A stretch of DNA of 64,000 nt from Mucilaginibacter terrenus (GTDB lineage Bacteria > Bacteroidota > Bacteroidia > Sphingobacteriales > Sphingobacteriaceae). Both the position numbers and the translations under genes were made by a program. This document shows, piece after piece, positions 1,849 through 33,557 of the stretch (position 1 is its first letter; every line of letters begins with the position of its first letter). The stretch spans positions 62,001-126,000 of the forward strand of contig NZ_QWDE01000001.1 in the NCBI RefSeq assembly GCF_003432065.1, written 5' to 3'. Below the pieces are notes generated by a model. The model was not told where the DNA came from, did no database searches, and saw nothing but the letters and a program-made list of their open reading frames with translations.

Positions 1849-1866
1849 TATTGATGTTGTTTGTTT

Positions 1867-1874
1867 CAAATGTA
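1867..1874 (-). promoter_or_regulatory. -7 promoter box of the NTF2-like gene
   Basis: TACATTTG on the reverse strand matches the Bacteroidota -7 consensus TAnnTTTG exactly and sits 18 bases before the chosen ATG. I see no TTTG at the usual -33 spacing, so this is half a promoter by sequence alone. Confidence 0.45.
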
Positions 1875-1926
1875 TCATTTCTGATGAATCTGACATGCGG
1901 CAAACGCAGCCCGATGTATAAATTCT

Positions 1927-1934
1927 TAATTTTG
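1927..1934 (+). promoter_or_regulatory. -7 promoter box of map
   Basis: TAATTTTG matches TAnnTTTG exactly and ends 20 bases before the map start codon, implying a short leader of roughly 15-17 bases. No -33 TTTG is visible at the right distance. With the box at 1867-1874 it makes a compact divergent promoter region. Confidence 0.45.
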
Positions 1935-1954
1935 CGGCAGATAAAAGTTTCACC

Positions 1955-2719: not shown

Positions 2720-2730
2720 GCCCCGCCAAC

Positions 2731-3081
2731 TTATTTGCGTAATATTTTGTCCATAGCTTTACCTTTTGCCAGTTCGTCTATCAGCTTATCCATATAGCGT
2801 ATCTTCTGCATTAGCTCATCTTCGATGTCTTCTACACGATAGCCGCAAATTACACCAGTTATTTTCGATGCATTTGGGTGCAGCTGAGGCGCTTCTGCAA
2901 AAAAGGCTTCCAGGCTGCATTTATCATCAATTTGCTGCTGTAGCTGCTGTTGGCTATAACCCGTTAGCCAGCAGATAACGGCGTCTGCCTCTTCCTTTGT
3001 ACGGCCTTTCTTCTCTACTTTGTTAATGTAGTGGGGGTACACGCCCGCAAAGGACATTTTGTAAACTTTGGTGTTATCCAT
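2731..3081 (-). CDS. DUF2200 family protein
   Basis: This 116-residue protein matches the DUF2200 family by its opening pattern ([23 protein letters not shown]), the central ICWLTGYSQ segment and the later [35 protein letters not shown]. The family is small, soluble and widespread in bacteria; its function is unknown as far as I know. I used the ATG at 3081 (MDNTKVYKM) because the family begins at this point and the upstream seven codons add nothing recognisable. It ends 12 bases from the map stop codon, convergent. Confidence 0.88.
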
Positions 3082-3213
3082 TGATGCCGGGTTTATACAC
3101 AATTATAGTACTTGTTAATACAACTTAATAATCTATCTGCATCAATTCTCAGTTTTAAAAAATGTAGCAAGCAAGCCCCCGTTTACTTATCTTACGCCCA
3201 ATTATACATCACC

Positions 3214-11062: not shown

Positions 11063-13555
11063 TTATTTGGCGCGTTTGGCGGCCATTTTATCTTTAAACA
11101 CTTTCATGTAGTAGCCGCCCACAACGCTGCGCGCCTGGAAGCCTACCATTTTACCGTTGGTGGTTTCGTGCCAGTCGCTAAGCGGAACGCGGCTGCTGGT
11201 TTCCTGTACGTACTTGTACACGGGGTTAACCAGTCCTTCGAAATCTTTGCGGGAGTTGGCCATAGATGCGGTCCAGATGATCCAGTCGCTCTTGGTGTAG
11301 GTTTTGCGGCTATCCAGCGGCAAACCGTATTCTTCCTGGTGCGACAGGTAGTATTTCATCTCCTTTTCGTACACCCCGGCAGGGAATAGCTTAAGGCCGA
11401 GTACCTTGTCCCAAACCATGTTATACTTCTGGCTCCAGGTCTTAGGGTTCTCGAACACCAGGCCGTAGTGGTCGCCGGCATCGTCCTTCTCCATCCATTT
11501 AGCAGCCATTACAGCAGCCATCTCGCGGTACTTCTTAGCTGCAGGTGCATCGCCCATCATGGCAGCCATCTTAGCGTAGGCACCAATAGCCACAATAGCT
11601 TTTACAGACAAGTTTGCATTACGCGCCAGGTGACCCGCAAAGTCGTCGGTACACAATTGGTTGCTCGGGTCAAAGCCAGCTTCGGCCAGGAAGTGGGTCC
11701 ACTTGGTTAGGGTAGCCCAGTGCTTTTTAGCGTAAGCAGGGTTGTTCTCGGCAGCAACAATAGCCGCGGTGAGGATAACCATGTTACCGCACTCTTCTAC
11801 CGGCATGTCTTCGCCGTAGGTTTGGCCGTTGGCAATAGGATAGGTGCCCAGGTCATGCGCCGCGAAAGGTTTGGTCCACTTGCCGCTCTCGCTGTAGTAG
11901 AAGATACCGTTAAGCATGCCCTTAAGCAGCTCAGGGTTATAAGTAAGGTACAACGGTGCGGACGGGTAGGTAACGTCTACCGTATTTATAGAGCCATTGC
12001 TGAAGTTCTCTTTAGACAGGAACAGCAGTTCGCCTTTAGGGCTTTTAACCAGCTGATGCGCTGCAATACTCTGGCGATAGGCCAGCACGCAAAGCTTGGC
12101 ATACTTCTCGCCGCCGGCTTTCAGCGCGTCGTTGTAAATCTTTGTATCTGTAGCTTTGCATTTGGCAATAACGGCAGCATAGTTCTTTAACGAAGAGCTT
12201 AATACGCCTTCAATAGTGGTGCCTTTGGCTTCCTTCCACAACGGGCGCAGGTTGGTTTTGAAGTACTGTACCGAGTAGTCCTCGTCATAACCAATGGCGA
12301 TGTGTTTCTCGGTAGCAGCACTTCCCACACGACCGAACGGCAGCATGGTGTTCAGCATTAGCTGTTTGCCGGTAAGGGTAGATAGTGCGCCAGGAGATAG
12401 CGCGTAGCTATCCAAAGCGTTGTCTTGTGTGCTGATGTACTGTTTAGCGTTGTAAGTAGGAGAGGCCACGTACACGTAACCCCAGTCGATGCGTACGTCG
12501 TCGCCTTTCTTTTCTAGCACCGGCTGCTCGGTGGTACCGGCTTTCATTATCTGGATACCGTTTGAAGTATAGGCCGTGGCTTTTACCTGCTGTGTAGGTT
12601 TGTTCACCGCAAGGTCGGTAGATACGCCTTGGTAGATATCTACAGCGTGGGTCTTGCTATCTGACGATTGAACCTCGTAGCTGATGTAAGATACAGGAGT
12701 AACCAGAGTTTTTATGTCAGTCAATATCAACGGTGAGCTGAAAGTCACTTTGAGCTTCACCGGACCGCAATTGAAGTTGTAGATGGTTTGCGTTGCGGTT
12801 ACCTGTACGTTGGTTTGCCTGGCAACCTTTATGTTCTCGTTGGTTTTATCTTCCAGTTGTACAGATAAACCAGCATCCAGTGCTGCAAGGCCGCCGGTAT
12901 TTGTGCAATGGATAGCCAGCACGTTTTCGCCCACCTTAAGGTTTCCGTTGTCTTTCAAGGGAAACATTTGCAAGTCGCCGTTTGCGCCTGATTGACTGCT
13001 AACCTTTTTGCCGTTGATGAAAACCTCTGCATCATCATCATGATAAAGGCGTAAGATAAGAGGAAGTACAGGTAATTCGCTTAATGTGAAAGTCCTGCGT
13101 ACGTAGAGTTCTTTGCTGGTCCAGTGGGTGCCAATGGTACGTATAGCATCGCTGAATGGTGCACTACCTGTTTTCCAGCTGTTGTCATTAAACTCCGGTT
13201 TCTCCCAGTCATCAGCAGGTTTTTCAAAGACGTACTTACAGGAATACGGCTGCTCATCGGCAGCGGGCAAGATAGTTTTATAACGCGCAGCAGCCATCCC
13301 CATAAAGCGGTAATACTGCCCGTCAGCTTTTAGCACGCCTATTAACGACTGCGGGCTGCCGGTCCAGTGCATTGTGGCAGATTCATTTAACTTATCGGTT
13401 GGCGACCATACACTTAAATAAGGTGTGTGGGTGATCAATGGGTAAGCAGGGGCACGGTCTTGTGCAGAGACAGTACCGGTTGTAGCAGCAAGTGCAAAAA
13501 CAAGTACGTGGAGCGTCCGTTTTGCACGATTAGCAAAATAATTGTAAATATTCAT
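11063..13555 (-). CDS. DUF4965/DUF5127/DUF1793 protein (glutaminase A-like), exported
   Basis: This 830-residue secreted protein has a signal peptide (LHVLVFALAATTGTVSAQ) and the architecture of fungal glutaminase A relatives: an N-terminal beta domain opening with APAYPLITHTPYLSVWSPTDKLN, a galactose-binding-like insert (LYVRRTFTLSELP, LYHDDDAEVFINGKKV), then a DUF4965/DUF1793 alpha/alpha-type catalytic region (FSNGSINTVDVTYPSAPLY, DLGTYPIANGQTYGEDMPVEECGN, WIIWTASMA). Despite the family name, most bacterial members have unproven substrates and may act on glycans, since the helical barrel resembles those of glycosidases. It has its own terminator and stands alone. Confidence 0.9.
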   Translation of the reverse strand: MNIYNYFANRAKRTLHVLVFALAATTGTVSAQDRAPAYPLITHTPYLSVWSPTDKLNESATMHWTGSPQSLIGVLKADGQYYRFMGMAAARYKTILPAADEQPYSCKYVFEKPADDWEKPEFNDNSWKTGSAPFSDAIRTIGTHWTSKELYVRRTFTLSELPVLPLILRLYHDDDAEVFINGKKVSSQSGANGDLQMFPLKDNGNLKVGENVLAIHCTNTGGLAALDAGLSVQLEDKTNENIKVARQTNVQVTATQTIYNFNCGPVKLKVTFSSPLILTDIKTLVTPVSYISYEVQSSDSKTHAVDIYQGVSTDLAVNKPTQQVKATAYTSNGIQIMKAGTTEQPVLEKKGDDVRIDWGYVYVASPTYNAKQYISTQDNALDSYALSPGALSTLTGKQLMLNTMLPFGRVGSAATEKHIAIGYDEDYSVQYFKTNLRPLWKEAKGTTIEGVLSSSLKNYAAVIAKCKATDTKIYNDALKAGGEKYAKLCVLAYRQSIAAHQLVKSPKGELLFLSKENFSNGSINTVDVTYPSAPLYLTYNPELLKGMLNGIFYYSESGKWTKPFAAHDLGTYPIANGQTYGEDMPVEECGNMVILTAAIVAAENNPAYAKKHWATLTKWTHFLAEAGFDPSNQLCTDDFAGHLARNANLSVKAIVAIGAYAKMAAMMGDAPAAKKYREMAAVMAAKWMEKDDAGDHYGLVFENPKTWSQKYNMVWDKVLGLKLFPAGVYEKEMKYYLSHQEEYGLPLDSRKTYTKSDWIIWTASMANSRKDFEGLVNPVYKYVQETSSRVPLSDWHETTNGKMVGFQARSVVGGYYMKVFKDKMAAKRAK

Positions 13556-19015: not shown

Positions 19016-19132
19016 AACTGTTTAACGTACAGCGTCGGCTATTGTTCCAACCTTATAAGTTGAATGCTCCTTTTCCAAAAAAGGAATAGTGTAATTGCCA
19101 AAGAAATGATGTTTACTACGCGTTGGATTGCC

Positions 19133-19162
19133 TTTGTTACTGTTGTAAAAACGCTAAATTTG
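19133..19162 (+). promoter_or_regulatory. Full Bacteroidota promoter of the kelch regulator gene
   Basis: TTTG at 19133-19136, an 18-base spacer and TAAATTTG at 19155-19162 fit the -33 TTTG and -7 TAnnTTTG consensus at normal spacing. Transcription would start near 19166, so translation must begin after that. This rules out the upstream part of the long frame and fixes the ATG at 19204. Confidence 0.7.
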
Positions 19163-19203: not shown

Positions 19204-21759
19204 ATGAAAGTAACTGGTAGATTTATATCGCCGTTTACGCCGGTACATAATGCTATTTGTACTCTGTTGCTGTTGGTGGTTAGTGTGTGGAATTGCAAAG
19301 CGCAGAGCCTGCAGTTTAATTCTAACGACAGCTTAATGAGCAAGCGCACCTCTTACGTAGTGTTTGCCAACAAGCCACCCACCTTTAAAGACCGCTTCAT
19401 TATCAGTTTTGATTTGTCGTTATGGGATAACGACCACCTGGGCTACGTTTTTAACATTACCGACACGCATAATAACTCGTATAGCCTGACCTATATCTAC
19501 AATCATAATGGCTCGCCAACACTTAATTTTAACATTGATAGTAAGAGCAATAAGATAGAGATACCCCTGCAGCTTTCTCAATTGAAGAAACGGCACTGGA
19601 TACCTGTAAAGGTGGACATAAACTTAACGGCCAATACTGTTGCCTTTTTAGTTAATGGCAAATGGTATAAAGCAAAAGAGTTTGGTTTTGAACAGGAGAT
19701 AACACCCACGATCACGTTTGGCCGCAATCCGCATTACTCTGATGTGCCTAAAATGGCGCTGAAGGACCTTGAAATTGGCAATGAAGATGAGAAATACTTT
19801 TTTCCATTAAACGAATGGAAAGGCAGCGCCGTGCACGACAAGGAAGGTGACGCTATCGGCTATGTAGATCACCCTTCGTGGCTCATCAACGAATCTTATT
19901 TCTGGACACCTAAATTTCAGCGCACGTTTAATGATGTTGCAGGGCTGAATTTTGATGCGGAGAAGCAAAACCTGTTTGTGTTCGAGAAAGATCGACTACT
20001 GCAATATAATGTGCAAGATGGTGTCGTTTCAGAAAAGTCTTACAAGAACACTTTACCAATAAAGCTGGTACTGGGCAAAAGTGTTGTAAATACAAATCAG
20101 CATAAGGTATATGCCTATGAGGCTTTGCCGGCAGATAGTAATCAAAGCATTGCCGCTCTTGACCTGAGCACACTTACCTGGCAGCTTTTAGGTAAAGGCT
20201 CCATCCGCGACCAAAGACATCATCATAATTCTTTTTTCGACCGGGATCAGAAAGAACTTTATCTTTTTGGGGGATATGGTTCATTCCAGTACCACAAAGA
20301 CCTTTTTAAGTACGACCAGGCGCTAGACAAATGGCAAAAACTTGAATTTAAAGGTGATACTATAACACCTCGTTTTTTCTCGGGCAGCAGCCAGGCTGAT
20401 AACAACAATGAGGTTTATGTGTTTGGCGGCTATGGCAACCAGTCGGGTAATCAAATAGTTGGTGGTACGCACTATTACGATTTATACAGGCTCAATTTAA
20501 CTACCCATACAATTAAAAAGCTTTGGCAGATAACACCTGCAGAAGAGCCTTTTGTATCCGCTAATAACCTCATTATTTCTAAGGATAAGAAATATTTTTA
20601 CGCATTGTGTTATCCGCACGAAAAACCGAAAACCAATCTTGGGCTGTATAAATTTTCAATCAAGGATGGATCATACGAGATTGTTAGCGGAACTATCCCG
20701 GTCACTTCGGAACGTATAGAAAGTGACTTCAACCTTTTCTACGATGCCACGCAGGATATTTTTATTTGTACTGCCCAGGAGTTTACATCGCCAACGCAAT
20801 CAACCATACGTATCCTTACGCTTTCCGGTCCGCCTGTAACTACACAGGCTTACCTTGAGGCGCAAAAACCCGAAGAAGCCAGCACAGGTAAATACTGGTG
20901 GTATGCAGTAGCCGCGGCGGCTACTGCAGGTGGTGTGGCTTATTTGCTTTGGAAGAAGAAATCAAAACCTGCTGTTGCTGATGCTGAGGAACAATTGGTA
21001 TTTGATCCTTCTTCTAGAAAAAAGGCCGAAAAAAAACCAAACGCGGTGTATCTGCTAGGCGAGTTTAATGCATATAACAAAGCTGGGAAGGATATAACTT
21101 ACCTTTTCAGCCCGAAAATAAAACAGTTATTTATACTGATATTACTGAACAGCCGGGAAGGCGAAGGGGTGATTTCCAAAAAAATATCATTTACACTTTG
21201 GCCGGAGAAAGATGTTACAAAAACCAAGAACATCCGGGGCGTAACGCTCAATCACCTAAGGAACATCCTTGCCGATTTTGATGGTATTGAGCTTACCTTT
21301 ATAAATGATACCTACCGTTTCCAGATCAATGAAGGTTTTTATTGCGATTACTTTGTAATCAGTTCTGCAATCGATCAAGTGCATCAGCACGACCTTACTA
21401 CAGAGGCGTTTGTTAACGGATACTTCGACTTGTTTAGCCGTGGCAGCCTTTTGAAGGAGCTGCCCGAGACGTGGCTGGACAATATTAAACTCGAATTTGA
21501 AGAATTGTTGTTACAAGTACTGCTGCCCGAAGTAAAACGAATATATGAAGCTGGAGACCACAAGCGCGCGCTGGAGCTCTCTCGCATTGCCTTGACGATA
21601 GATCCGTTTAATGACGTTGCATTAAAATATAAACTCAAGTCTCTTCGCCGGATTAAAGGTGTTGACACTGCTCGCAGGGTTTACGACGAATTTGCAGCAG
21701 AGTATCAAAAATCGCTCGATAGTGAATATCATGTTCCTTTCGAGAAGATCTGCCGGTAG
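19204..21759 (+). CDS. Membrane-spanning kelch-sensor / winged-helix regulator of the adjacent locus
   Basis: This 851-residue protein starts with a membrane-targeting segment (NAICTLLLLVVSVWNCKAQ). The periplasmic part has a concanavalin/LamG-like beta sandwich (about 35-225) and kelch repeats (about 260-530; two FGGYG words in ELYLFGGYG and EVYVFGGYG). One transmembrane helix at about 563-583 (WYAVAAAATAGGVAYLLW) is followed by basic residues, and the cytoplasmic part carries a winged-helix DNA-binding domain (about 612-715: SKKISFTLWPEKDVTKTKN, GVTLNHLRNIL) and a helical TPR/BTAD-like tail. I infer a one-component regulator that senses a glycan outside and acts on DNA inside. It lies 187 bases before the SusC gene, with repeated GGTTAA words between. 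Confidence 0.85.
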   Translation: MKVTGRFISPFTPVHNAICTLLLLVVSVWNCKAQSLQFNSNDSLMSKRTSYVVFANKPPTFKDRFIISFDLSLWDNDHLGYVFNITDTHNNSYSLTYIYNHNGSPTLNFNIDSKSNKIEIPLQLSQLKKRHWIPVKVDINLTANTVAFLVNGKWYKAKEFGFEQEITPTITFGRNPHYSDVPKMALKDLEIGNEDEKYFFPLNEWKGSAVHDKEGDAIGYVDHPSWLINESYFWTPKFQRTFNDVAGLNFDAEKQNLFVFEKDRLLQYNVQDGVVSEKSYKNTLPIKLVLGKSVVNTNQHKVYAYEALPADSNQSIAALDLSTLTWQLLGKGSIRDQRHHHNSFFDRDQKELYLFGGYGSFQYHKDLFKYDQALDKWQKLEFKGDTITPRFFSGSSQADNNNEVYVFGGYGNQSGNQIVGGTHYYDLYRLNLTTHTIKKLWQITPAEEPFVSANNLIISKDKKYFYALCYPHEKPKTNLGLYKFSIKDGSYEIVSGTIPVTSERIESDFNLFYDATQDIFICTAQEFTSPTQSTIRILTLSGPPVTTQAYLEAQKPEEASTGKYWWYAVAAAATAGGVAYLLWKKKSKPAVADAEEQLVFDPSSRKKAEKKPNAVYLLGEFNAYNKAGKDITYLFSPKIKQLFILILLNSREGEGVISKKISFTLWPEKDVTKTKNIRGVTLNHLRNILADFDGIELTFINDTYRFQINEGFYCDYFVISSAIDQVHQHDLTTEAFVNGYFDLFSRGSLLKELPETWLDNIKLEFEELLLQVLLPEVKRIYEAGDHKRALELSRIALTIDPFNDVALKYKLKSLRRIKGVDTARRVYDEFAAEYQKSLDSEYHVPFEKICR

Positions 21760-21787: not shown

Positions 21788-21883
21788 GGTTAATTATGCT
21801 CGGTTAACAAAGTTTTAAGCGGGTTAACCCTTTTTTTAACCCCCATTTTAATACATCCCCATCTATACTTGCTTGCCGGTTAA
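21788..21883 (+). promoter_or_regulatory. Cluster of GGTTAA words upstream of susC (candidate operator)
   Basis: GGTTAA occurs at 21788, 21802, 21822 and 21878 on the forward strand. The second and third sit exactly 20 bases apart (CGGTTAAC and GGGTTAAC), and the third is part of the palindrome GGGTTAACCC at 21821-21830, with TTAACCC repeated at 21836-21842. The GGGTTAA/TTAACCC pair could also form a weak hairpin. The position between the regulator and the operon it probably controls makes an operator likely. Confidence 0.45.
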
Positions 21884-21946: not shown

Positions 21947-24900
21947 ATGGATGAAAATTTTACCAATTATGGTGTACACCCCCGTGGTATACGCTATGGT
22001 GTGAAGATGGGGAGGGCGGTGCAATGTTGCATTATATCCGTCTTGCTGGTACTTCTATGGAGTACATCCTTTGCACAAACAAACACTATCACCGGGAAAG
22101 TGTCTGACAATGCCGGTCCGCTGCCCGGCGTTACCGTTAAAGTTAAAGGGACAAACACCGCTACTGTAACAGATGTAAATGGCAAGTACACCATTGCAGT
22201 AAGTTCCGGTCAAACATTGCAATTTTCCTTTTTAGGGTACGCAGCGCAGGAAGTCCCTATTACTAACCAGCCTTCAGTTAACATCACACTAACGCAAGCA
22301 TCCTCTACACTCAATGAGGTTGTAGTAGTAGGTTACGGTACACAAAAGAAAGTTACGGTAACAGGTTCTGTTGCCACCGTAAACAGTAGCGAGATAGTAA
22401 CCACCAAGAACGAGAACGTGCTGAACTCGCTAACCGGTAAGGTAGCCGGTTTACGCGTTACGCAAAACTCAGCTGAACCGGGCTCCTTCGACAACTCCTT
22501 CAGTATTCGTGGGTTTGGCGATCCGCTGGTGATCATAGACGGGGTACCACGGGATAACATCACCAGGCTTGACCCAAATGATATCGAAAGCGTGTCAGTA
22601 CTGAAAGACGCTGCGGCTGCTATTTACGGCGTGCGCGCGGCAAACGGTGTAGTCTTGGTTACTACCAAAAAAGGTAAAAAAGGATCAATGGAACTTAACT
22701 ACTCCGGTACGTATGGTTTCCAGGTACCATCAGGCTTGCCGAAGCCGGTTGAAGCAATTGATTACATGACACTGGTGAATGAGCAGCTATTGCATAATGT
22801 GAACGGTGGCCAGGTAAAATATTCTCAAGCCGATTTTGACGCTTACACCAGCGGCCAGCGTGTAACTACCGACTGGTATACGCCTGTAATTAAGAATAAA
22901 GTACCCCAGTCACAGCACAATTTAAATGCTATTGGCGGAAGCGAAAATACCAACTACTTCATCAGTGCGGGTATAACCAATCAGGATGGTTTTCTTCGCA
23001 GCGGCGACCTTAACTATAAGCGTTACAACCTACGGTCGAACCTTTCTGCTAAAGTAAATAAAAACCTTACGGTAGATGTGAACCTGAATGGTACTATGGA
23101 TCAAAAGAACCAGCCTTACCAGGATGCGTGGTGGATAATTCGTTCGTTCTGGAGACAAGTACCTACACAATCTATTTACGCAAACAACAATCCAGATTAT
23201 CTTAATGTTGGCCAGGTTGACGGCTCTAACCCGGTGGCACTTGCTGATGCCGATGTTGATGGATACCGGGTTTATAACAACAAGTGGTTCCAATCGCAGC
23301 TTTCGGCTACGTACGTGGTGCCCTTCGTACCAGGGCTTAGCGCTAAGGGGTTGTTTAGTTATGACTATTACAGCTCCAGCAACCGCATCTACCAAAAATC
23401 TTACAACCAGTATAACTACGATGCAAATAGCGACAGCTATCAGGCTGTGCCAAACCAAACACCTGCTACTTTCCGCAGAGAGTTTTTCGAGCGTCCGGGC
23501 ACGCTAATGCAATTGTCGCTTAATTACGACCGTAGCTTTGGTGATCATAGTTTTACGGGCTTATTATTATATGAAGAGAATAACCGCCAGCAAGATAATT
23601 TCTATGCACAGCGTGAACTCTCTTTAGCTGTAGATCAACTATTTTCAGGAAGTGCCCAAAACCAGCTAGGTTCTGCAAACTCCGGCGATATATATAACTA
23701 CACCAATAAGTCTGTTGTAGGTCGTATCAACTACAATTACAAAAGTAAGTACCTGGCAGAATTTAGTTTTCGTAACGATGGCTCCTCAAGGTTCTCGCCT
23801 TTGAAACGCTGGGGATTTTTCCCGGCCGGTTCATTAGGCTGGAGAATATCTCAGGAAGGATTCTGGAAAAATTCAACAGCGCTATCATTCATCAACGATC
23901 TGAAATTAAGGGCATCTTATGGTAAAGTAGGGGATGACTCCGCACTGGCTTACCAGTTCCTTACAGGTTACCGCTACCCTGCAAATGGGTCTAACAACCA
24001 GCTGCCTCCGGGTTCAGTGTTCGACGGTACGTTTGTTAATGGTACTGAGAATCTGGGTATAGCTAACCCTAACCTTACCTGGTTCAACGCCGAAACTTAC
24101 AATATCGGTATGGACTTGGAAGCATGGAACGGCCTATTAGGTGCTACCGTCAACGTTTTTCGTCGTGACCGCACCGGTTTGCTTGCAACACAAATATTGA
24201 ATTTGCCAGGCGTTGTTGGTGCAGACCTTCCGCAGGAGAACTTAAATAGCGATCGCACTCAGGGGTTCGAATTAGAGCTTAGCCATCGCAATCATCTCGG
24301 TGCGTTTAGCTATTTCTTAAGAGGTAACGTATCATGGGCACGAACCCAAAACCGTACGGTTGTGCAGTCTCGCTTTGGCAACTCTCAACTAAACTGGCAT
24401 AACAATCAAAACAATCGCTGGAATAACATTTATTGGGGCTACGGCGAAGGTGGAAGGTACACCAGCTATCAGGATATCCTGAACAGCGGACAGTTTGTAT
24501 CTCGTAATGCAGTAGTGGGTGATTATATCTACGAGGATTGGAACGGCGACGGGCAGATCAACAACGACGACGTGCACCCGATAGCTTACAACAGCGCGCC
24601 ATTAACCAACTTTGGTTTAACACTTGGTGGCGCTTACAAAGGGTTCGACTTCAATACCGTGTGGCAGGGTGCAAGCGGTGTAAGTGTTTCTTATCAGGAA
24701 CAGTTGAACATACCTCTTTGGGGTGGTGGCAGCGCGTTGGGTATGTTCCTGGACAGATATCATCCGGCAGATGCAAATGCTGATCCTTACAATCCTAATA
24801 CAGTTTGGATACCTGGTAACTACGCGCTTACTGGTACCACTGCAGATGTAAACTCCATGTTTAACATTCAGGATGCCAAATACATCAGGCTAAAATCTGC

Positions 24901-25096
24901 CGAACTGGGTTACAGCATCAGTTCAGGTTTTGCGAAAAAGATAGGCATTAAAGGTGCCAGGATATTTGTGAATGGCTACAACCTGCTAACCTTCACCGGG
25001 GTTAAGTACCTGGACCCGGAACATCCTTCCAGCACTTATGGGTACCTCTACCCACTTAACAAAACTTACTCACTTGGCGTAAATGTTAAGCTATAA
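21947..25096 (+). CDS. SusC/RagA-type TonB-dependent outer-membrane transporter (mannan-type locus)
   Basis: This 1049-residue protein has a signal peptide ending near TSFAQ, a carboxypeptidase-like N-terminal domain (ITGKVSDNAGPLPGVTVKVKGTN), a TonB box region and plug (EVVVVGYGTQKKVTVTGS, SIRGFGDPLVIIDGVPRD, SVLKDAAAAIYGVRAANGVVLVTTKKG), and a 22-strand barrel to the end. It imports oligosaccharides delivered by its SusD partner, powered by TonB. It is first gene of an operon with SusD (11 bases), DUF3823, an unclassified enzyme, GH92 and GH76, so the substrate is probably mannose-containing. I see no STN domain, so it is controlled by the kelch regulator rather than by a sigma/anti-sigma pair. 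Confidence 0.95.
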   Translation: MDENFTNYGVHPRGIRYGVKMGRAVQCCIISVLLVLLWSTSFAQTNTITGKVSDNAGPLPGVTVKVKGTNTATVTDVNGKYTIAVSSGQTLQFSFLGYAAQEVPITNQPSVNITLTQASSTLNEVVVVGYGTQKKVTVTGSVATVNSSEIVTTKNENVLNSLTGKVAGLRVTQNSAEPGSFDNSFSIRGFGDPLVIIDGVPRDNITRLDPNDIESVSVLKDAAAAIYGVRAANGVVLVTTKKGKKGSMELNYSGTYGFQVPSGLPKPVEAIDYMTLVNEQLLHNVNGGQVKYSQADFDAYTSGQRVTTDWYTPVIKNKVPQSQHNLNAIGGSENTNYFISAGITNQDGFLRSGDLNYKRYNLRSNLSAKVNKNLTVDVNLNGTMDQKNQPYQDAWWIIRSFWRQVPTQSIYANNNPDYLNVGQVDGSNPVALADADVDGYRVYNNKWFQSQLSATYVVPFVPGLSAKGLFSYDYYSSSNRIYQKSYNQYNYDANSDSYQAVPNQTPATFRREFFERPGTLMQLSLNYDRSFGDHSFTGLLLYEENNRQQDNFYAQRELSLAVDQLFSGSAQNQLGSANSGDIYNYTNKSVVGRINYNYKSKYLAEFSFRNDGSSRFSPLKRWGFFPAGSLGWRISQEGFWKNSTALSFINDLKLRASYGKVGDDSALAYQFLTGYRYPANGSNNQLPPGSVFDGTFVNGTENLGIANPNLTWFNAETYNIGMDLEAWNGLLGATVNVFRRDRTGLLATQILNLPGVVGADLPQENLNSDRTQGFELELSHRNHLGAFSYFLRGNVSWARTQNRTVVQSRFGNSQLNWHNNQNNRWNNIYWGYGEGGRYTSYQDILNSGQFVSRNAVVGDYIYEDWNGDGQINNDDVHPIAYNSAPLTNFGLTLGGAYKGFDFNTVWQGASGVSVSYQEQLNIPLWGGGSALGMFLDRYHPADANADPYNPNTVWIPGNYALTGTTADVNSMFNIQDAKYIRLKSAELGYSISSGFAKKIGIKGARIFVNGYNLLTFTGVKYLDPEHPSSTYGYLYPLNKTYSLGVNVKL

Positions 25097-25106
25097 CATC
25101 AACAAC

Positions 25107-27017
25107 ATGAAAAAGACCATATACATAATCATATGCTTTTTGGTGTGCTTTACAACAGCATGCAAAAAGCTGGATGTACCTCCTATCAATATCATACAGG
25201 ATAAAGACGTATTTACTAGCACCGGTGGCATACAGGCCTACATGGCACGTATTTACAGCCAGTTGCCGATAGAAGATTTCCGTTATTCACCGCAGCGCGG
25301 CCTAAATTTCTTCTGGATCATCAGTCCGTTCCCGGCCGTAACAGGCGAAGCATTAAGCCGCGATCAGAATGGTGCCATGCAGGAGAACGTGGGCGAATCG
25401 CCATGGAGTGATTGTTATAAGCTGATTAGGGATGCTAATTACTTTCTGGAGAATATGCCTAAGTATAAAAGCACTTACAGCGATGCTCAGGTTAACGCTT
25501 GGTTAGGCGAGGCACGTTTCATACGCGCACTTACGTACTTTGCGCTGGTAAAGCGCTATGGAGGTGTACCGCTGGTAGATAAGGTGCTGGAATATCCAAC
25601 CACCAATGTTGAGGATCTTAATATAGCTCGCGCATCAGAGGAAGCTGTTTACGATTTTATAGCAGCCGACCTTGACTACGCATACACCAACATGTCCGAG
25701 TCTAATCAGTCTGGCCGTGCCAACAAGTATGCAGCGGCAGCTTTTAAATCGCGGGCAATGCTTTACGCCGGCTCAATAGCTAAATACAACACAACAACGT
25801 TGGTTGATGCAGCGGGCAACAGGGTATGTGGTATACCTGTCAATAAAGCTGTTACCTATTTTAAAGCCGCTTACGATGCAGCTTTATTAGTGGCACCGAA
25901 GTACAGCCTGTATAAAAAAGCCTGGGCAGCTGGCGATAAGGAAGCTCAGTTTCAAAACTATGTAAACATGTTTTTTGATGAGACAAGCCCGGAGAACGTG
26001 TTTGTAAAAGAATACCACTATCCTGAGTCTGTTCACGGGTACGATGCTTACAATGTGCCTCGACAGCTGATGGGTGCGAACGGGTATTCTTCGGAAGTGA
26101 ACCCTACGCTAAATTACGTAGAGCTGTTTGACGGATTGCCCAGGAACCCCGATGGTACAATCAAAACTACAACAGCCGGCAAATATGATTTATATTCCAA
26201 TACCATGGACCTGTTTGCCAATGCCGAACCAAGGCTTCGTGCAACCGTGATACTTCCTGGTGATCAGTTCAAGGGACAGAGTATAGAAATTCGTCGCGGT
26301 ATTTACACAGGGCCATCAAACGGCGGTATCAGTCCGCTGCTTCCTCCTGGTTCTACGTCTAATTACCCAACAAGTAATATTGTGCAATCATCTAATGCCA
26401 ACCAAACTCCATATAAGTTACCTGATGGTAGCACACTTAATCCTGCTGGCTTAAGCGGCGTGTTCACCGGTGATGGTACATGTGCTATTTCAGGTTTCTC
26501 TATCCGTAAATGGCTTGTGCCAGATAAACCAACATCAGAAGTGCTGGAAAACCGTTCTGACCAAACCTGGATCGAAATGCGTTACGCTGAAGTATTGCTA
26601 AACCGTGCCGAAGCAGCCTTTGAACTAAGTAGTTTAGGCCAGAACGATAAAGATTACCAACAGGATGCCTATATGGACATCAACCAAATTCGTGAAAGGG
26701 CGGGAGCTACCTTACTCACAGGGCCCGGCCAGTTAACAACAGATATTATCCGTAAAGAAAGAAGAAAAGAACTTGGTTTTGAAAATAAGATATGGTGGGA
26801 TATGCGCAGGTGGAGAACTGCTGATAAAGAACAAAACTCGACTATATATCGTGTGTTGATGCCATTTTACTCGGCGGCTGACAAAAAGTACTTTTTTGAT
26901 GCGCGAACCGATGAGCGCAACGTTCGGTACACCTTTGATGTACGTTGGTACTACGAGGAGATACCAGGCGGTGAGATACAGAAAAGCCAGAAGTTAATAC
27001 AAAACCCAGGTTATTAA
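25107..27017 (+). CDS. RagB/SusD family glycan-binding lipoprotein
   Basis: This 636-residue outer-membrane lipoprotein has a signal MKKTIYIIICFLVCFTTAC and Lys-rich residues after the lipidated Cys (CKKLD), consistent with surface export. The SusD TPR-like N-terminal region (AWLGEARFIRALTYFALVKRYGGVPLVD) and the conserved C-terminal core (VLLNRAEAAFEL, IRERAG, IRKERRKELGFENKIWWDMRRW) are complete, ending in QNPGY as SusD proteins often do. It captures oligosaccharides as the lid of the SusC channel. The ATG at 25107 follows the SusC stop by 10 bases and gives the clean lipoprotein signal. Confidence 0.95.
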   Translation: MKKTIYIIICFLVCFTTACKKLDVPPINIIQDKDVFTSTGGIQAYMARIYSQLPIEDFRYSPQRGLNFFWIISPFPAVTGEALSRDQNGAMQENVGESPWSDCYKLIRDANYFLENMPKYKSTYSDAQVNAWLGEARFIRALTYFALVKRYGGVPLVDKVLEYPTTNVEDLNIARASEEAVYDFIAADLDYAYTNMSESNQSGRANKYAAAAFKSRAMLYAGSIAKYNTTTLVDAAGNRVCGIPVNKAVTYFKAAYDAALLVAPKYSLYKKAWAAGDKEAQFQNYVNMFFDETSPENVFVKEYHYPESVHGYDAYNVPRQLMGANGYSSEVNPTLNYVELFDGLPRNPDGTIKTTTAGKYDLYSNTMDLFANAEPRLRATVILPGDQFKGQSIEIRRGIYTGPSNGGISPLLPPGSTSNYPTSNIVQSSNANQTPYKLPDGSTLNPAGLSGVFTGDGTCAISGFSIRKWLVPDKPTSEVLENRSDQTWIEMRYAEVLLNRAEAAFELSSLGQNDKDYQQDAYMDINQIRERAGATLLTGPGQLTTDIIRKERRKELGFENKIWWDMRRWRTADKEQNSTIYRVLMPFYSAADKKYFFDARTDERNVRYTFDVRWYYEEIPGGEIQKSQKLIQNPGY

Positions 27018-27029
27018 TTGCGTAAAAAC

Positions 27030-27788
27030 ATGAAGAAGATATTATATGCGATAGCTGTATGCGCCATTACCCTTGCGGGAAGCTCATGCAAGAAACTTGA
27101 CAATTACGATTCGCCTAACGAAACACTTACAGGTAGCGTAATAGATGCTGGCACAGGCAAAACCCTACAAACCGAAAATGGTGGCGGCGGCACCCGTATC
27201 AAATTACTGGAGACCAGCTGGAGTGATAACCCAACGCCTTTCTATATTTCATCAATGCAGGATGGTACGTTTAACTATACAAAGCTATTCCCCGGTACTA
27301 ATAAGATAAGTGCCGAAGGCGCATTTGTACCGATGGTGCAAACCGATGGAAGTGGCGCTACGACGGTTGATAAAAGCCAGACCGTTGAGATAAAAGGCAC
27401 TACAACCGTTAATTTTTCTGTCGACCCATTTTTACGTATCGAGTGGGTAGGAGAGCCAGTGCTTAACAATGATGGAACGGTAACTGTAAACTTTAAAATT
27501 ACAAGAGGTACTAATGATCCTGCTTTTCAGCAGAATATAACTGATGTGCATCTGTTCTTGAATTCTAACAAATTTGTGGGTAATAACAATTATGACAATC
27601 GTTATTCGCCGCAGATAGATTTCAATGGATCATCTGCAAACGCGCAACTGGGTCAAACTATCTCCCTAACCACAAAGGGAGGACCACTACCAACCAAGCG
27701 CGACTATTTCCTGCGTATAGGTGCAAGGACCGATTACGGCTTGAAGTACTACAACTACACAGATGTGAAAACGATAAGTGTTCCTTAA
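27030..27788 (+). CDS. DUF3823 domain lipoprotein
   Basis: This 252-residue protein has a lipoprotein signal (ILYAIAVCAITLAGSSC) and a DUF3823 body: NYDSPNETLTGSVIDAGTGKTLQTENGGGGTRIKLLETSW followed by a beta sandwich with FNYTKLFPGTNKISAEGAFVP and a second Ig-like half ending in RIGARTDYGLKYYNYTD. DUF3823 proteins are known from SusC/D operons, especially with alpha-mannan or related loci, and are thought to be surface glycan-binding proteins; direct evidence here is only position and family. The start ATG at 27030 is 12 bases after the SusD stop. Confidence 0.92.
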   Translation: MKKILYAIAVCAITLAGSSCKKLDNYDSPNETLTGSVIDAGTGKTLQTENGGGGTRIKLLETSWSDNPTPFYISSMQDGTFNYTKLFPGTNKISAEGAFVPMVQTDGSGATTVDKSQTVEIKGTTTVNFSVDPFLRIEWVGEPVLNNDGTVTVNFKITRGTNDPAFQQNITDVHLFLNSNKFVGNNNYDNRYSPQIDFNGSSANAQLGQTISLTTKGGPLPTKRDYFLRIGARTDYGLKYYNYTDVKTISVP

Positions 27789-27857: not shown

Positions 27858-30035
27858 ATGAAAAAGATTCTCCTAAGCATTGGCGCAATAGCATTATCTG
27901 CTGGCGTTTATGCACAACCAAAAACTGCTGCGCTACCTCAAAAGACTGCGTTCCAAACCAGCAGCCCATGGATTCCCCAAATAGACGTACGATCGGACAT
28001 CGCTATCGTTTATGGCGTGAACGATAGGCCCGGGATGACCTTTGAGCAACGTGTACAATCCTGGCGCGACCACGGTTACCAAACACAGTTCATGACGGGT
28101 ATTGCCTGGGGCGAATACAAAGACTATTTTCTCGGTAAATGGGATGGTATCAACCACTTAGGCGTAGGCCAGGTTACCGTTAAAGGTGATACTATTTTTC
28201 ATGGAAAGGATATGCCCTATGTGGTGCCGGTGAAATCGTTTGTCGAATACATGAAAACCGCGGTAATAAAAAGGGTTATAGACGCGGGTATAACTGACAT
28301 CTTTTTAGAGGAACCCGAGTTTTGGGCGAGAGCCGGTTATAGCGCGCCGTTTAAAGAAGAGTGGCAAAAGTACTACGGATTTCCATGGAAACCCCAGCAC
28401 GAATCTGCAGAAAACACATATTTATCCAGTAAACTCAAGTACCATTTATATTACGAGGCGATTAAAGAAACATCTAATTACGCCAAGGCTTACGGCAGGA
28501 GCAAAGGCAAAAGCATAAAAGTTTACATAGCCACCCACTCACTGGTAAATTATTCATCGTGGCAAATTGTTAGTCCGGAGGCGAGCCTTGCATCGCTGCC
28601 TGGTATAGATGGCTACATAGCACAGGTTTGGACAGGCACCTCCCGCGAGCCGACTTTTTACGACGGACAAAAGAAAGAGCGCGTGTTCGAGAACGCTTTC
28701 CTGGAATATGGTTCAATGGTGTCTATGACGGCTCCTACCGGTCGTAAGATGTACTTCCTGACGGATCCTATTGAAGATTGGCCGCGCGATTGGGCCGATT
28801 ATAAAAAAAATTACCAGGCAACATTTACTGCCAAACTGCTATACCCGATGGTTGCAGATTACGAAGTAATGCCATGGCCGGAACGTATTTACACCCACCC
28901 GTATAAAGTTGCTAACAGCAACGAAAAGGTATTAATACCGCAATACTATTCCACTCAAATGCAGATAATGGTGAATGCGCTTAACAGCATGCCAAAATCA
29001 CCTACTCGTGTCAGCGGAGTAAACGGAATTGGTGTGTTGATGAGTAACACGCTGATGTTTCAGCGGTTTCCTACTCATAACGGCTACGATGATCCCCAGT
29101 TCTCTAACTTCTATGGGCAGACACTGCCGTTACTTAAGCGCGGCGTGCCGGTGCAAACCGTTCACATGGAAAACCTGCAGTATGCTGCTACTTTAAAAGG
29201 TATCAAAGTACTGGTGGTAAGCTATTCTAATATGAAGCCGGTTTCTGCCGATGTGCATGCGGCTTTGGCTAAATGGGTGAAAGCGGGTGGTGTGCTTATT
29301 TACTGCGGCCGCGACGACGATCCTTATCAAACTGTGATGGACTGGTGGGATACAAAGGGTAACAAGTTTACCGCGCCCTCTCAACACTTATTTAAGCTAA
29401 TGAACATCAATGCTGCATCAGCAAAGCAGAAGTACAGCTACGGTAAAGGTACGGTATACATCATCAGGCAAAACCCCAAAGAGTTTGTGCTGGATGCCAA
29501 CGCCGATCCGAAATTCATCGATGTAGTGAAAGCCGGGTATGAACAGGACGCTAAAGCCGGTACGCTGCTGTTCAAAAACAGTCTTTACCTCGAAAGAGGG
29601 CCTTACGACGTAGTGTCTGTAATGGATGAGAACGCCGACAGTAAGCCTTACAACATTAAAGGGCCCGTGATAGATCTGTTCGATCCACAGTTGCCGGTGT
29701 TAGCCGAAAAGGTGGTAAACCCTGGCGAGCAGTCGCTGCTGTATAACGTGAACCGGATCGTTAACAAAACAAAACCACAGGTGCTGGCCGCTGCGGCACG
29801 CGCTTACGAAGAAAAGGTACAAGGCGCCAGGTACTCTTTTGTGGTGAAAAGCCCAATACAAACCCTGAACAGTATGCGTGTACTATTGCCCGGGAAACCC
29901 AATGTTATCAAGGTGACAGACAGCAAAGGGCAGCCGGTTGCTGATGTAAAAACGTCCTGGGATGCATCGTCCAAAACCGTGTTCCTGGGCTTTGCAAATG
30001 ATCCTGAAGGAATAAAGGTTGAATTAAGTTGGTAA
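27858..30035 (+). CDS. Unclassified exported enzyme-like protein with TIM-barrel and A4-type domains
   Basis: I cannot place this 725-residue protein in a glycoside hydrolase family. A signal peptide (ILLSIGAIALSAGVYAQ) precedes a probable TIM barrel (about 40-330) with strand-like segments DIAIVYGVNDRPG and ITDIFLEEPEFWARAG, in which Glu151, Glu152 and Glu154 are candidate catalytic acids. At about 385-505 a flavodoxin-like region (IGVLMSNTLMFQRFP, LKGIKVLVVSYSN, LAKWVKAGGVLIYCGRDDD) resembles the trimerisation domain of GH42-type beta-galactosidases, and a beta domain closes the protein. It sits between DUF3823 and GH92 in one operon, so it should act on the same glycan; I infer a new or divergent glycosidase. 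Confidence 0.8.
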   Translation: MKKILLSIGAIALSAGVYAQPKTAALPQKTAFQTSSPWIPQIDVRSDIAIVYGVNDRPGMTFEQRVQSWRDHGYQTQFMTGIAWGEYKDYFLGKWDGINHLGVGQVTVKGDTIFHGKDMPYVVPVKSFVEYMKTAVIKRVIDAGITDIFLEEPEFWARAGYSAPFKEEWQKYYGFPWKPQHESAENTYLSSKLKYHLYYEAIKETSNYAKAYGRSKGKSIKVYIATHSLVNYSSWQIVSPEASLASLPGIDGYIAQVWTGTSREPTFYDGQKKERVFENAFLEYGSMVSMTAPTGRKMYFLTDPIEDWPRDWADYKKNYQATFTAKLLYPMVADYEVMPWPERIYTHPYKVANSNEKVLIPQYYSTQMQIMVNALNSMPKSPTRVSGVNGIGVLMSNTLMFQRFPTHNGYDDPQFSNFYGQTLPLLKRGVPVQTVHMENLQYAATLKGIKVLVVSYSNMKPVSADVHAALAKWVKAGGVLIYCGRDDDPYQTVMDWWDTKGNKFTAPSQHLFKLMNINAASAKQKYSYGKGTVYIIRQNPKEFVLDANADPKFIDVVKAGYEQDAKAGTLLFKNSLYLERGPYDVVSVMDENADSKPYNIKGPVIDLFDPQLPVLAEKVVNPGEQSLLYNVNRIVNKTKPQVLAAAARAYEEKVQGARYSFVVKSPIQTLNSMRVLLPGKPNVIKVTDSKGQPVADVKTSWDASSKTVFLGFANDPEGIKVELSW

Positions 30036-30137: not shown

Positions 30138-32411
30138 ATGAAAAGAACACTTTTAATTGTACTTGCTTTGCTGCCATTGTTGTCATCGGCACAAACCAAC
30201 ACCGCTAGCCTTGCCGATCTGGTAAATCCGTTGATGGGTACTGATTCCAAGCCCTCATTATCTAATGGGAATACGTACCCGGCAATTGCTTTGCCCTGGG
30301 GCATGAACACCTGGACACCACAAACAGGCAAGATGGGGAGTGGCTGGCAATACACGTACAACGCCGACAAGATTGTCGGCTTTAAGCAAACACACCAGCC
30401 TTCACCCTGGATGAATGATTATGGTCAGTTCTCCATCTTTCCGGAAGTTGGCAAGATCAAGCTGGAAGATGCTGAACGTGCCAGCTGGTTCTCGCATAAG
30501 GCAGAGGTATCCCGGCCTTATTACTACAGCGTGTACCTGGCAGACTACGACATTACCACAGAGATTACACCTACGGAGCGTGCGGCAAGTTTCCGGTTCA
30601 CGTTCCCAAAGAGTGACAGCTCACACATTGTGATCGATGCGTTTGACAAAGGTTCTTATGTCAAAATCATTCCTGGCGAAAACAAGATAGTAGGTTATAG
30701 TACACGCAACAGCGGTTCTGTCCCTGCAAATTTTAAAAATTACTTTGTCATCTACCTTGATAAACCGTTTACGGCATCGGCCTGGCATAATAAAGATGTT
30801 GACGAAGGTAAGCTGGAGTATACAGGCGATCACGCAGGGGCTGTGCTCAACTTTAAAACCACTAAGGGCGAAAAGGTTCATCTGCGCGTTGCATCATCGT
30901 TCATCAGTATAGAGCAGGCCGAACTTAACCTCAAGCGCGAGATCGGAACCGAAAGTTTCGCATCCACCCAACAAAAAGCGAAAGACACCTGGAACAAAAC
31001 GCTGAGCCGCTTGAAAGTGGACGGCGGCACTACCGACCAGATTAGAACTTTTTACTCCTGCCTGTACCGGATGCTGTTTTTCCCGAATCGGTTGTACGAG
31101 TTTGATGCTAAAAACCAAATTGTACACTACAGCCCTTACACCGGGAAGATTACACCCGGGTATATGTTTGCAGGTACTGGTTTTTGGGACACGTTCAGGG
31201 CGTTATACCCCTTCCTAAATCTGGTTTACCCATCCATGAGCAAAGAAATGCAGGAAGGCCTCATCAACGATTACAAAGAAGGCGGCTGGCTGCCCGAGTG
31301 GAGCAGTCCGGGTTATGCAGATATTATGGTTGGTAACAACTCTGCTTCTGTTGTAGCAGAGGCTTACCTGAAAGGCGGAAGGGGATATGATATTAACACC
31401 TTATATCAAGCCCTGCTACATGGTGCCAATAACACAGGTCCGGACGCTACAGGCCGCAGAGGAGTGGAGTTTTACAACTCGATCGGCTATGTGCCATACG
31501 ATGTAAAGATTAATGAGAACGCAGCACGTACGCTCGAATATGCTTATGACGACTTCGCGATCTACAAATTGGGTAAAGCACTTGGTCGGCCTGCATCTGA
31601 AACTGAAATCTATCGGAAACGAGCAACGAATTATAAAAATCTGTTCGACCCGCAAACCGGGTTGATGCGCGGCAAAAATAAGGATGGCAGTTTTGCAACA
31701 CCTTTTAATCCATTTAAATGGGGCGATGCTTTTACCGAGGGAAACAGCTGGCATTACACTTGGAGCGTTTTTCATGACGTACAAGGTATTATCAACCTGA
31801 TGGGTGGTAATCAAAAATTTGTAACTAAGCTCGATTCGGTATTTACATTGCCGCCCGTGTTCGATGATAGCTATTATCACTCAGTGATTCACGAAATACG
31901 AGAGATGCAGATTGCAGGTATGGGCCAGTACGCACATGGCAATCAACCTATACAGCACATGACGTACCTGTACAATTACGCAGGCCAGCCCTGGAAGACA
32001 CAACAGCACGTTCGTGATGTGATGGATAAGATGTATAAACCGACTCCTGACGGTTACTGCGGCGACGAAGATAACGGCCAAACCTCCGCATGGTACGTGT
32101 TCTCTGCAATGGGCTTTTATCCGGTAACTCCCGCAAGCGATCAGTATGTCATTGGTGCGCCGTTGTTTAAAAAAGTAACACTTATCCTGGAGAATGGTAA
32201 AACTATCAACATTAACGCGCCTCAAAACAGTATCGACAACCGGTATGTAAACAGCCTTAATGTTAATGGTAAACCGTACACCTATAATTGGTTAAGCCAC
32301 TCCGCATTGCTGAAAGGTGCTGTACTCAACTTTGGTATGTCGTCTCAGCCTAACAAACAACGCGGTACCAAGCCAACCAACGCACCTTACTCACTCACAA
32401 ACGATAAATAA
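30138..32411 (+). CDS. GH92 alpha-mannosidase
   Basis: This 757-residue exported enzyme (signal peptide LLIVLALLPLLSSAQ) is a calcium-dependent exo-alpha-mannosidase of family GH92. The N-terminal beta sandwich begins LADLVNPLMGTDSKPSLSNGNTYPAIALPWGMN; the helical barrel carries FTEGNSWHY with Glu534 and GDEDNGQTSAWY with Asp643 and Asp645. These fall one residue from the positions I recall for the acid (Glu533) and base pair (Asp642/Asp644) of the Bacteroides enzyme BT3990. Specificity (alpha-1,2, -1,3 or -1,4) cannot be read here. Operon position with GH76 supports alpha-mannan degradation. Confidence 0.95.
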   Translation: MKRTLLIVLALLPLLSSAQTNTASLADLVNPLMGTDSKPSLSNGNTYPAIALPWGMNTWTPQTGKMGSGWQYTYNADKIVGFKQTHQPSPWMNDYGQFSIFPEVGKIKLEDAERASWFSHKAEVSRPYYYSVYLADYDITTEITPTERAASFRFTFPKSDSSHIVIDAFDKGSYVKIIPGENKIVGYSTRNSGSVPANFKNYFVIYLDKPFTASAWHNKDVDEGKLEYTGDHAGAVLNFKTTKGEKVHLRVASSFISIEQAELNLKREIGTESFASTQQKAKDTWNKTLSRLKVDGGTTDQIRTFYSCLYRMLFFPNRLYEFDAKNQIVHYSPYTGKITPGYMFAGTGFWDTFRALYPFLNLVYPSMSKEMQEGLINDYKEGGWLPEWSSPGYADIMVGNNSASVVAEAYLKGGRGYDINTLYQALLHGANNTGPDATGRRGVEFYNSIGYVPYDVKINENAARTLEYAYDDFAIYKLGKALGRPASETEIYRKRATNYKNLFDPQTGLMRGKNKDGSFATPFNPFKWGDAFTEGNSWHYTWSVFHDVQGIINLMGGNQKFVTKLDSVFTLPPVFDDSYYHSVIHEIREMQIAGMGQYAHGNQPIQHMTYLYNYAGQPWKTQQHVRDVMDKMYKPTPDGYCGDEDNGQTSAWYVFSAMGFYPVTPASDQYVIGAPLFKKVTLILENGKTININAPQNSIDNRYVNSLNVNGKPYTYNWLSHSALLKGAVLNFGMSSQPNKQRGTKPTNAPYSLTNDK

Positions 32412-32423
32412 ATTCATCTATCT

Positions 32424-33557
32424 ATGAGAAAAGTACTTTATATTTTTGCAATAAGCATGTTTATTACAGCACTAGGGTGCAGTAAGGGAAACGAGGGCAC
32501 TAAACCAGCAGGGGATAAGCCAGTTAATCCACCACCTGTTATAACACCAACCAGCTTCACTGCCGCTGATGCAACCGCTGCTTATACCGCATTTAACCGT
32601 TACTTCTACGATGCATCAAAAAAGCTCTATTATGGCAGTACCAGGCGGGATGGTGTAGCAGCTATTTGGACACAGGCCATTTACTGGGACATGGCCATGA
32701 ACGTATACGAGCGTACCAAAGATCCAGCGCAACTGACCATGATCAACGACATTTACCAGGGTAATTATAACCAGTACGATGGTTATAACTGGGATAATAC
32801 CACTACCTGGTTCATCTACGACGATATGATGTGGTGGGTAATGGCGCTGGCCCGTGCCAAACAGCTTACGGGTAACGACGTATACCTGCAAAAAGCAAAA
32901 TCTGGTTTTGAACGAGTATGGAATGGCTCATACGACGCGGTTGATGGCGGCATGTTTTGGGATTTTAAGCATAGCGGCAAAAACGCTTGTATCAACTATC
33001 CAACCGTAATAGCGGCAGTGCGCTTGTACAAGCTTACCGGCGATGCAACTTATTTAACTAAAGCAAAATCTGTGTACGCATGGGCTAAAGCTAACCTAAT
33101 GGATGCCAGCGGCCGTATAGCCGACCATAAAATCGGCAACAACCCGGCAGGTTACGAAGATTATACCTATAATCAGGGTACTGCTATAGGTGCTGCGGTT
33201 ACGCTCTTTAAAGAAACTAATGACCAAAGTTATCTAAACGATGCGAAGCTTGTTGCCGATTACACCAGGAACAAAATGGGCACCAATGGCCTGTTGCCTG
33301 CTGAGGGTGACTTTAATGAGCAAGGAGTGCTGAAAACGATCTTCGCCCAATATATTATGCAGCTGATAAATGATGGTGGCCAACCGCAGTATATGGATTG
33401 GATACAAACCAACGTGAACACAGGATGGAAAAACAGGGATACCGAACGCAATTTAACTTTTCGTAACTACGCTATCCATTGCCCAACCGGAGACATACAA
33501 TCTTACGAAGCCAGTAGCATAGTAACCTTTATGCAGTTGGTACCGCCAAAACAATAA
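32424..33557 (+). CDS. GH76 endo-alpha-1,6-mannanase-like lipoprotein
   Basis: This 377-residue surface-type lipoprotein (signal VLYIFAISMFITALGC) carries a GH76 alpha/alpha barrel. The catalytic Asp pair is visible as Asp133-Asp134 in WFIYDDMMWWVMAL, with AIWTQAIYWDMAMN, CINYPTVIAAVRLY and EDYTYNQGTAIGAAV as further signatures. GH76 enzymes cut the alpha-1,6-linked mannan backbone, as in yeast mannan, outside the cell. A proline-rich linker follows the lipidated Cys. It is the last gene of the operon, 12 bases after GH92, and is followed by a probable terminator. Confidence 0.93.
   Translation: MRKVLYIFAISMFITALGCSKGNEGTKPAGDKPVNPPPVITPTSFTAADATAAYTAFNRYFYDASKKLYYGSTRRDGVAAIWTQAIYWDMAMNVYERTKDPAQLTMINDIYQGNYNQYDGYNWDNTTTWFIYDDMMWWVMALARAKQLTGNDVYLQKAKSGFERVWNGSYDAVDGGMFWDFKHSGKNACINYPTVIAAVRLYKLTGDATYLTKAKSVYAWAKANLMDASGRIADHKIGNNPAGYEDYTYNQGTAIGAAVTLFKETNDQSYLNDAKLVADYTRNKMGTNGLLPAEGDFNEQGVLKTIFAQYIMQLINDGGQPQYMDWIQTNVNTGWKNRDTERNLTFRNYAIHCPTGDIQSYEASSIVTFMQLVPPKQ

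Follow-up and report, generated by a model that had tools for sequence, protein, structure and literature searches.

The regulator gene and its neighbourhood

The locus raises the question of how a kelch-containing, membrane-spanning protein could control the susC-susD-type operon that begins just downstream of its gene. We analysed a stretch of 64,000 nucleotides from Mucilaginibacter terrenus (the window) together with related loci and genomes, starting from a preliminary description of the protein as a one-component regulator. The genes concerned are the following.

19133..19162, + strand: promoter-like TTTG-N18-TAAATTTG of the regulator gene, read from the sequence
19204..21759, + strand: kelch/SARP regulator gene, 851 aa, membrane-spanning (ORF, homologues, Pfam and model)
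21947..25096, + strand: SusC-like TonB-dependent transporter, heading the predicted target operon
25083..27017, + strand: SusD-like protein
27018..27788, + strand: DUF3823 protein
27858..30035, + strand: uncharacterised 725-aa protein, Pfam without match
30138..32411, + strand: GH92 glycoside hydrolase
32424..33557, + strand: GH76 glycoside hydrolase

The regulator ORF runs from an ATG at 19204 to a stop at 21759, in a frame that is open upstream from a TTG at 19123. Homologues were detected in 90 of 301 genomes of the family, representing 11 of 25 genera (E 1e-10), and most matches covered about the whole protein length; the recurrence of homologues of similar length across genera rules out a chance ORF. 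A sample of the phylum gave homologues in 11 of 395 genomes (E 1e-20), and the named records include Mucilaginibacter, Puia, Parafilimonas, Bacteroides, Parabacteroides and Tannerella. The M. terrenus genome carries one copy. For comparison across loci we used a 61-locus set, made up of the window and 60 places picked for spread from the family homologue list; alignment A1 omits two short members, L056 and L057.

The gene had been described as having its start fixed by a full -33/-7 promoter. Both elements are indeed present upstream, TTTG at 19133-19136 and TAAATTTG at 19155-19162, and the -7 half is conserved, as judged by eye, in most of six close orthologues. The full pattern TTG-N17-23-TAnnTTTG occurred upstream of none of 20 regulator orthologues, which weakens the promoter as proof of the start, so that the start is supported rather than fixed.

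As to the suggested co-occurrence with susC genes, the next gene on the same strand was susC in 24 of the 61 loci, as against 15 of 604 other ORFs there. GH92 or GH76 genes lay on the piece of about 20 kb in 42/61 loci. Because the operon in the window contains both, and their usual substrates presumably point that way, an alpha-mannan-type glycan is its probable substrate.

A predicted periplasmic sensor and a cytoplasmic module of SARP fold

The AlphaFold2 model of the regulator, built with 59 sequences, had a mean pLDDT of 90. We drew the domain limits from the AlphaFold2 list of structural elements, as follows.

19204..19302, + strand: signal segment, aa 1-33, with a model helix at 9-29
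19306..19899, + strand: periplasmic beta-sandwich, aa 35-232, LamG-like by model only
19906..20826, + strand: kelch beta-propeller, aa 235-541 (Pfam and Foldseek)
20884..20961, + strand: single transmembrane helix, aa 561-586 (model and hydropathy)
21037..21333, + strand: OmpR/SARP-type winged helix, aa 612-710 (model and fold matches)
21346..21753, + strand: BTAD-like helical domain, aa 715-850 (model, fold matches and weak Pfam BTAD)

Modelled alone, the cytoplasmic part reached a pLDDT of 95, and its six Foldseek matches at E ≤0.001 were three AfsR and three EmbR chains, headed by 8hvr_I (E 2.6e-8). The VIA-align scores were Z 16.1 for AfsR 8k60_I (230 residues) and 14.6 for EmbR 2fez, with the next unrelated row at 9.8 and the TcpP complex 9gdr_H ranking low at Z 8.2. 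By the fold of the model, the cytoplasmic part is a complete SARP module of winged helix plus BTAD domain. Structure prediction thus recovered the proposed winged-helix fold, with AfsR and EmbR as the best solved matches, and what had been called a BTAD-like tail is no loose tail but belongs to a whole SARP module. Signals at the sequence level were faint. The Pfam BTAD match of the window protein stayed below threshold (E 0.044 for the whole protein, 0.0067 for the cytoplasmic part), Trans_reg_C was matched in 4 of 50 family members at E up to 0.1 as weak support for the HTH, and a PDB profile search with the cytoplasmic alignment found no SARP chains by sequence, designed TPR or helical proteins making up most of its matches (lowest E 0.00034). 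Among near-relative genomes the SARP module was present in 19 of 60, always within a frame of 847-896 aa, a length that fits a module fused to a sensor.

On the periplasmic side, the N-terminus was hydrophobic in all 59 sequences. The kelch propeller was well supported by Pfam (kelch, E 4.4e-18), by the model and by Foldseek matches to kelch proteins. The part described as a LamG-like sensor is modelled as a beta-sandwich at 35-232, and its family is unproven: Pfam LamG had no match in the window protein even at E 10, and a weak Laminin_G_2 match (E 0.015) appeared in one of 26 relatives. Nearly all of the best 50 Foldseek matches listed for the full model were kelch proteins, and the beta-sandwich was therefore not placed by that search; a LamG-like fold is plausible from the model.

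Locus L105 (G479) holds, beside a full-length relative, a 683-aa frame (1495-3546, − strand) whose N-terminal part is similar and which also has a transmembrane segment and a SARP module. By eye this protein is too short for a propeller; the kelch propeller may be dispensable.

The modelled helix at 561-586, together with an inner flank richer in K/R in 53 of 59 sequences, agrees with the single transmembrane helix and the periplasm-to-cytoplasm topology put forward earlier. In the window protein this segment is weakly hydrophobic, with a mean Kyte-Doolittle value of 1.15 against a family mean of 2.25, a value no higher than that of the best other segments of the same protein; the linker that follows (587-604) was modelled with low confidence. 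Pfam showed no kinase, receiver or sigma domain in the regulator, which sets it apart from hybrid two-component and sigma systems as had been proposed, and the models and the conservation both favour the one-component reading.

A TTAA array between the regulator gene and susC

Aligning the regulator-susC gaps of close orthologues revealed a conserved block between the two genes, a TTAA array that the preliminary description had missed and that we regard as the strongest evidence for the function of the regulator. The predicted operator is the new element of this work.

21802..21808, + strand: extra upstream GGTTAAC element, conserved in close orthologues
21824..21854, + strand: predicted operator TTAACCC N5 TTAACCC N5 TTAATAC, three direct copies at 12-bp spacing
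21864..21871, + strand: TATACTTG, a -7-like element in the susC promoter, 16 nt on from the first base of the third repeat

TTAA triples spaced at 11/12 were found in 36 of 41 regulator-susC gaps, a count that left out two gaps outside 60-700 bp (L038, L148); dinucleotide shuffles gave a mean of 0.28 and a maximum of 2. Across the 61 loci, 34 had the exact triple in the gap adjoining the regulator and 27 did not, and five other spacings yielded it in 0 to 3 of 61, which rules out a period artefact. Per kb, the triple occurred 1.04 times in regulator-adjoining gaps, 0.15 times in other intergenic sequence and 0.002 times in ORFs, and the five other spacings reached 0 to 0.09 in the regulator-adjoining gaps. 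With one mismatch allowed, 49 loci matched and 12 did not, the other spacings then matching 10 to 16 of 61. Locus L037 was scored as a miss solely through a 105-aa ORF, probably spurious, between array and regulator, and the one-mismatch match at the displaced regulator of L042 is likely due to chance. A named set of 17 loci (10/17 at 11/12 spacing, 1 to 4/17 at others) includes loci from apparently repeated genomes (L182, L190 and L195) and was not used as evidence.

A general SusC-promoter motif was ruled out, as the M. terrenus genome has 19 SusD matches and one TTAAYCC-type array. Its 17 other TTAA triples lack TTAAYCC, the nearest being TTAACCA/TTAACCT at C1:1633158. At distant loci the array precedes whichever gene is first, be it GH92, GH76, a LamG-domain protein, GH3 or susC.

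Three loci of a second clade (L067, L066 and L090) each carry at least two TTAA arrays, placed ahead of different genes within the locus, an arrangement that a small regulon would be expected to show. At L242 (G697), positions 2821-2860 hold a TTAATCCCTCAT tandem repeat inside a predicted ORF, matched in G756 too and probably unrelated to the operator; it accounts for two of the three array matches in each of these two genomes.

Repeat sequence was related to the type of recognition helix in a set of 38 arrays, obtained from 42 by removing repeated genomes (L190, L195) and overlapping arrays. With a GVTxN-type helix (23 arrays), 43 of the 46 first and second copies begin TTAACC; with an SxN-type helix (7 arrays), the figure is 0/14. 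The remaining 8 of 38 arrays were unclassed by helix type, and 7 of their 16 copies begin TTAACC. In 23/38 arrays the third TTAA is followed, 15 or 16 nt on, by a TA-N2/3-TTG element, any other single offset accounting for at most 2. The element at 21864 in the window may be the Bacteroidota -7 box, and this susC promoter shows no TTG-type -33 element at the appropriate distance. In the afs box, according to PMC10936776, two 11-bp direct repeats span -40 to -19 and overlap the -35 element; AfsR binds them as a side-by-side dimer that offers sigma region 4 another docking point. If the 21864 element is a -7 box, repeats two and three would be placed relative to the start site much as the AfsR repeats are.

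Co-occurrence, displacement and replacement across genomes

In 41 genomes picked for having (21) or lacking (20) an orthologue, the strict array pattern had a single match in every genome of the first group and no match in the second, and the reversed control gave 0/41. Within the genus (149 genomes), a close orthologue at a threshold of E 1e-230 was present in 55 (that of G779 is cut at residue 821), and the array was carried by precisely these 55; the reversed pattern matched one of 149. The corresponding Fisher p of 3.6e-42 overstates independence, since these related genomes share ancestry and the test counts no independent events. The 94 remaining genomes include 21 in which the family is represented only by distant members or fragments.

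In one further case, G725 (contig C6:20267-22004), the orthologue is split by a stop and matches up to residue 588 only; at the thresholds used this genome has neither the array nor the 725-aa gene.

In 43 of the 55 genomes, array and regulator share a strand and are no more than 2.5 kb apart; in the other 12 the regulator is displaced. The array of 11 displaced cases precedes the 725-aa marker gene of the operon by 6.1 to 8.3 kb, again on the same strand, and the twelfth (G779) is split over contigs. Three displaced cases were read (G131, G231 and G276): the array stays at the operon, directly before an orthologous susC-susD-DUF3823-725-aa operon, and no susC match occurs near the regulator, in the eight ORFs that follow it or the four before it. 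The 12 displaced cases may be of common ancestry and stem from few events.

The 725-aa gene is present in 75 of the 149 genomes, 55 with and 20 without a close orthologue. The sequence before the 725-aa gene was read in 19 of these 20, over as much as some 14 kb, and of the 19 only G255 keeps the orthologous susC. Its operon (L226, 5987-11382), with a susC 60% identical to that of the window, has no array, and the genome has no close orthologue; the place of regulator and array immediately before susC is taken by FecR and ECF sigma genes. Three distant members of the regulator family are still encoded elsewhere in this genome. From the gene order, G255 is an apparent natural swap of control systems.

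A proposed mechanism and its alternatives

From sequence and modelled structure we propose, with a probability of roughly 0.8, that the protein is a membrane-anchored one-component activator of SARP type, which controls the alpha-mannan-type locus through the predicted TTAA operator. The beta-sandwich and kelch propeller would sense a breakdown product of the locus glycan in the periplasm, and the signal would cross the single transmembrane helix to the SARP module. SARP protomers would then bind side by side on the direct TTAA repeats at 11/12 bp, which overlap the missing -33 position of the target promoter, so that the bound module could stand in for it in the manner of AfsR on the afs box and the susC-susD-DUF3823-GH operon would be switched on. 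In this scheme we infer DNA binding, activation rather than repression, the ligand and the oligomeric state.

The array might instead belong to the susC operon and be recognised by a different factor, with the kelch protein a co-inherited neighbour in some other role. Array, operon and close orthologue are inherited together in the one genus, and with a single operon in 19 kept where the close orthologue is missing, the array may be tied to the operon and not to the regulator. We nevertheless find this reading unlikely, because in other clades arrays of the same kind stand before different first genes beside divergent members of the regulator family, because the repeat sequence shifts with the helix type, and because an ECF/FecR system is found in G255 where regulator and array are both missing. 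These divergent loci, the helix-repeat correlation and G255 are what make the regulator the probable reader of an array that is largely co-inherited with its operon. That the module does not bind DNA at all, the periplasmic part being an enzyme or binding protein, is scarcely credible: weak Pfam HTH support, with Trans_reg_C in four of 50 members at E up to 0.1, would allow it, but the whole module matches the fold of two DNA-binding SARPs and a repeat array co-occurs with the gene.

Other alternatives keep protein and site and change the mode of action. As the array adjoins the core promoter, a bound protein could block polymerase and repress the operon until the ligand arrives; we hold this to be very unlikely given that the window promoter has no recognisable TTG-type -33 element where one would be expected, and that AfsR, of the same fold, activates from a similar position (PMC10936776). 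The SARP domain could also be freed as a soluble activator by ligand-triggered proteolysis, a rather unlikely course to which the weakly hydrophobic transmembrane segment of the window protein and the low-confidence linker at 587-604 would be suited, although the segment is more hydrophobic on average in relatives.

Comparison with known regulators

AfsR and EmbR are soluble actinobacterial proteins whose SARP module is N-terminal. The modelled protein shares with them the winged helix plus BTAD fold and, on predicted binding, direct repeats with an 11/12-bp period adjoining the core promoter; it differs in occurring in Bacteroidota and in carrying the module at its C-terminal end, after a periplasmic sensor and a transmembrane helix. 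Regulators of the ToxR/CadC/TcpP type likewise hold an OmpR-type winged helix at the membrane, but their DNA-binding domain is N-terminal and they are not known to have a BTAD domain. Hybrid two-component and ECF sigma/FecR systems resemble the proposed regulator in exerting control from periplasm to promoter over susCD operons, and genes of the latter kind fill the regulator slot in G255. The afs box has two repeats (PMC10936776), compared with mostly three in the TTAA arrays.

A similar overall plan is that of SusR, which the main text of PMC3878776 places in the membrane, with its sensor in the periplasm and a C-terminal DNA-binding domain in the cytoplasm, as a regulator of susCD loci. Compared by that description, SusR-like proteins have the same topology and the same susCD control, so that the statement that the kelch protein is unlike SusR was only partly right: sensor, DNA-binding domain and predicted site differ, the membrane topology does not. 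In the same text the predicted tandem SusR sites are 67 or 77 bp apart, as opposed to an array with an 11/12-bp period, the SusR DNA-binding domain is said to show no significant similarity to others, and the word kelch is absent. On this evidence, and by analogy, the protein would work like AfsR on the promoter and like SusR across the membrane. Among the papers found on kelch, BTAD, SARP and polysaccharide loci, judged mainly by title and the start of the abstract, we recognised no paper describing the kelch/SARP protein.

Systems specific to Bacteroidetes that have been proposed for polysaccharide loci comprise SusR-like, hybrid two-component and ECF/anti-sigma types (PMC3878776); if our reading holds, a further class would stand beside them, and the SARP mechanism would have been carried from soluble actinobacterial proteins to a membrane sensor. 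The DNA signature would then identify the target operon also in genomes that carry the regulator gene at a different place, and how a membrane-held protein finds and activates its promoter could be tested with one gene and one 31-bp site. We lean slightly towards a wider generalisation, namely a Bacteroidota-wide class of membrane-tethered SARPs that would read periplasmic glycan fragments, replace the sigma -33 contact by sigma adaptation from the membrane and turn on polysaccharide loci, with an operator code readable from genome sequence.

Other genes at the locus

The 725-aa protein had no Pfam match, and its best PDB match, an antibody chain at E 0.0094, was unconvincing. The best matches among its relatives in the 75 genus genomes are 54-88% identical, and it possibly represents an undescribed glycosidase-like family. 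In one clade a GH76 gene is divergent to the regulator in 9 of 10 loci, and the ten genomes examined for GH76 had 1 to 5 matches each. Outside the predicted operon, the window encodes a glutaminase A-like six-hairpin protein (PF16335) at 11063-13555 on the − strand, and genes similar to it come after the operon at loci L044 and L048.
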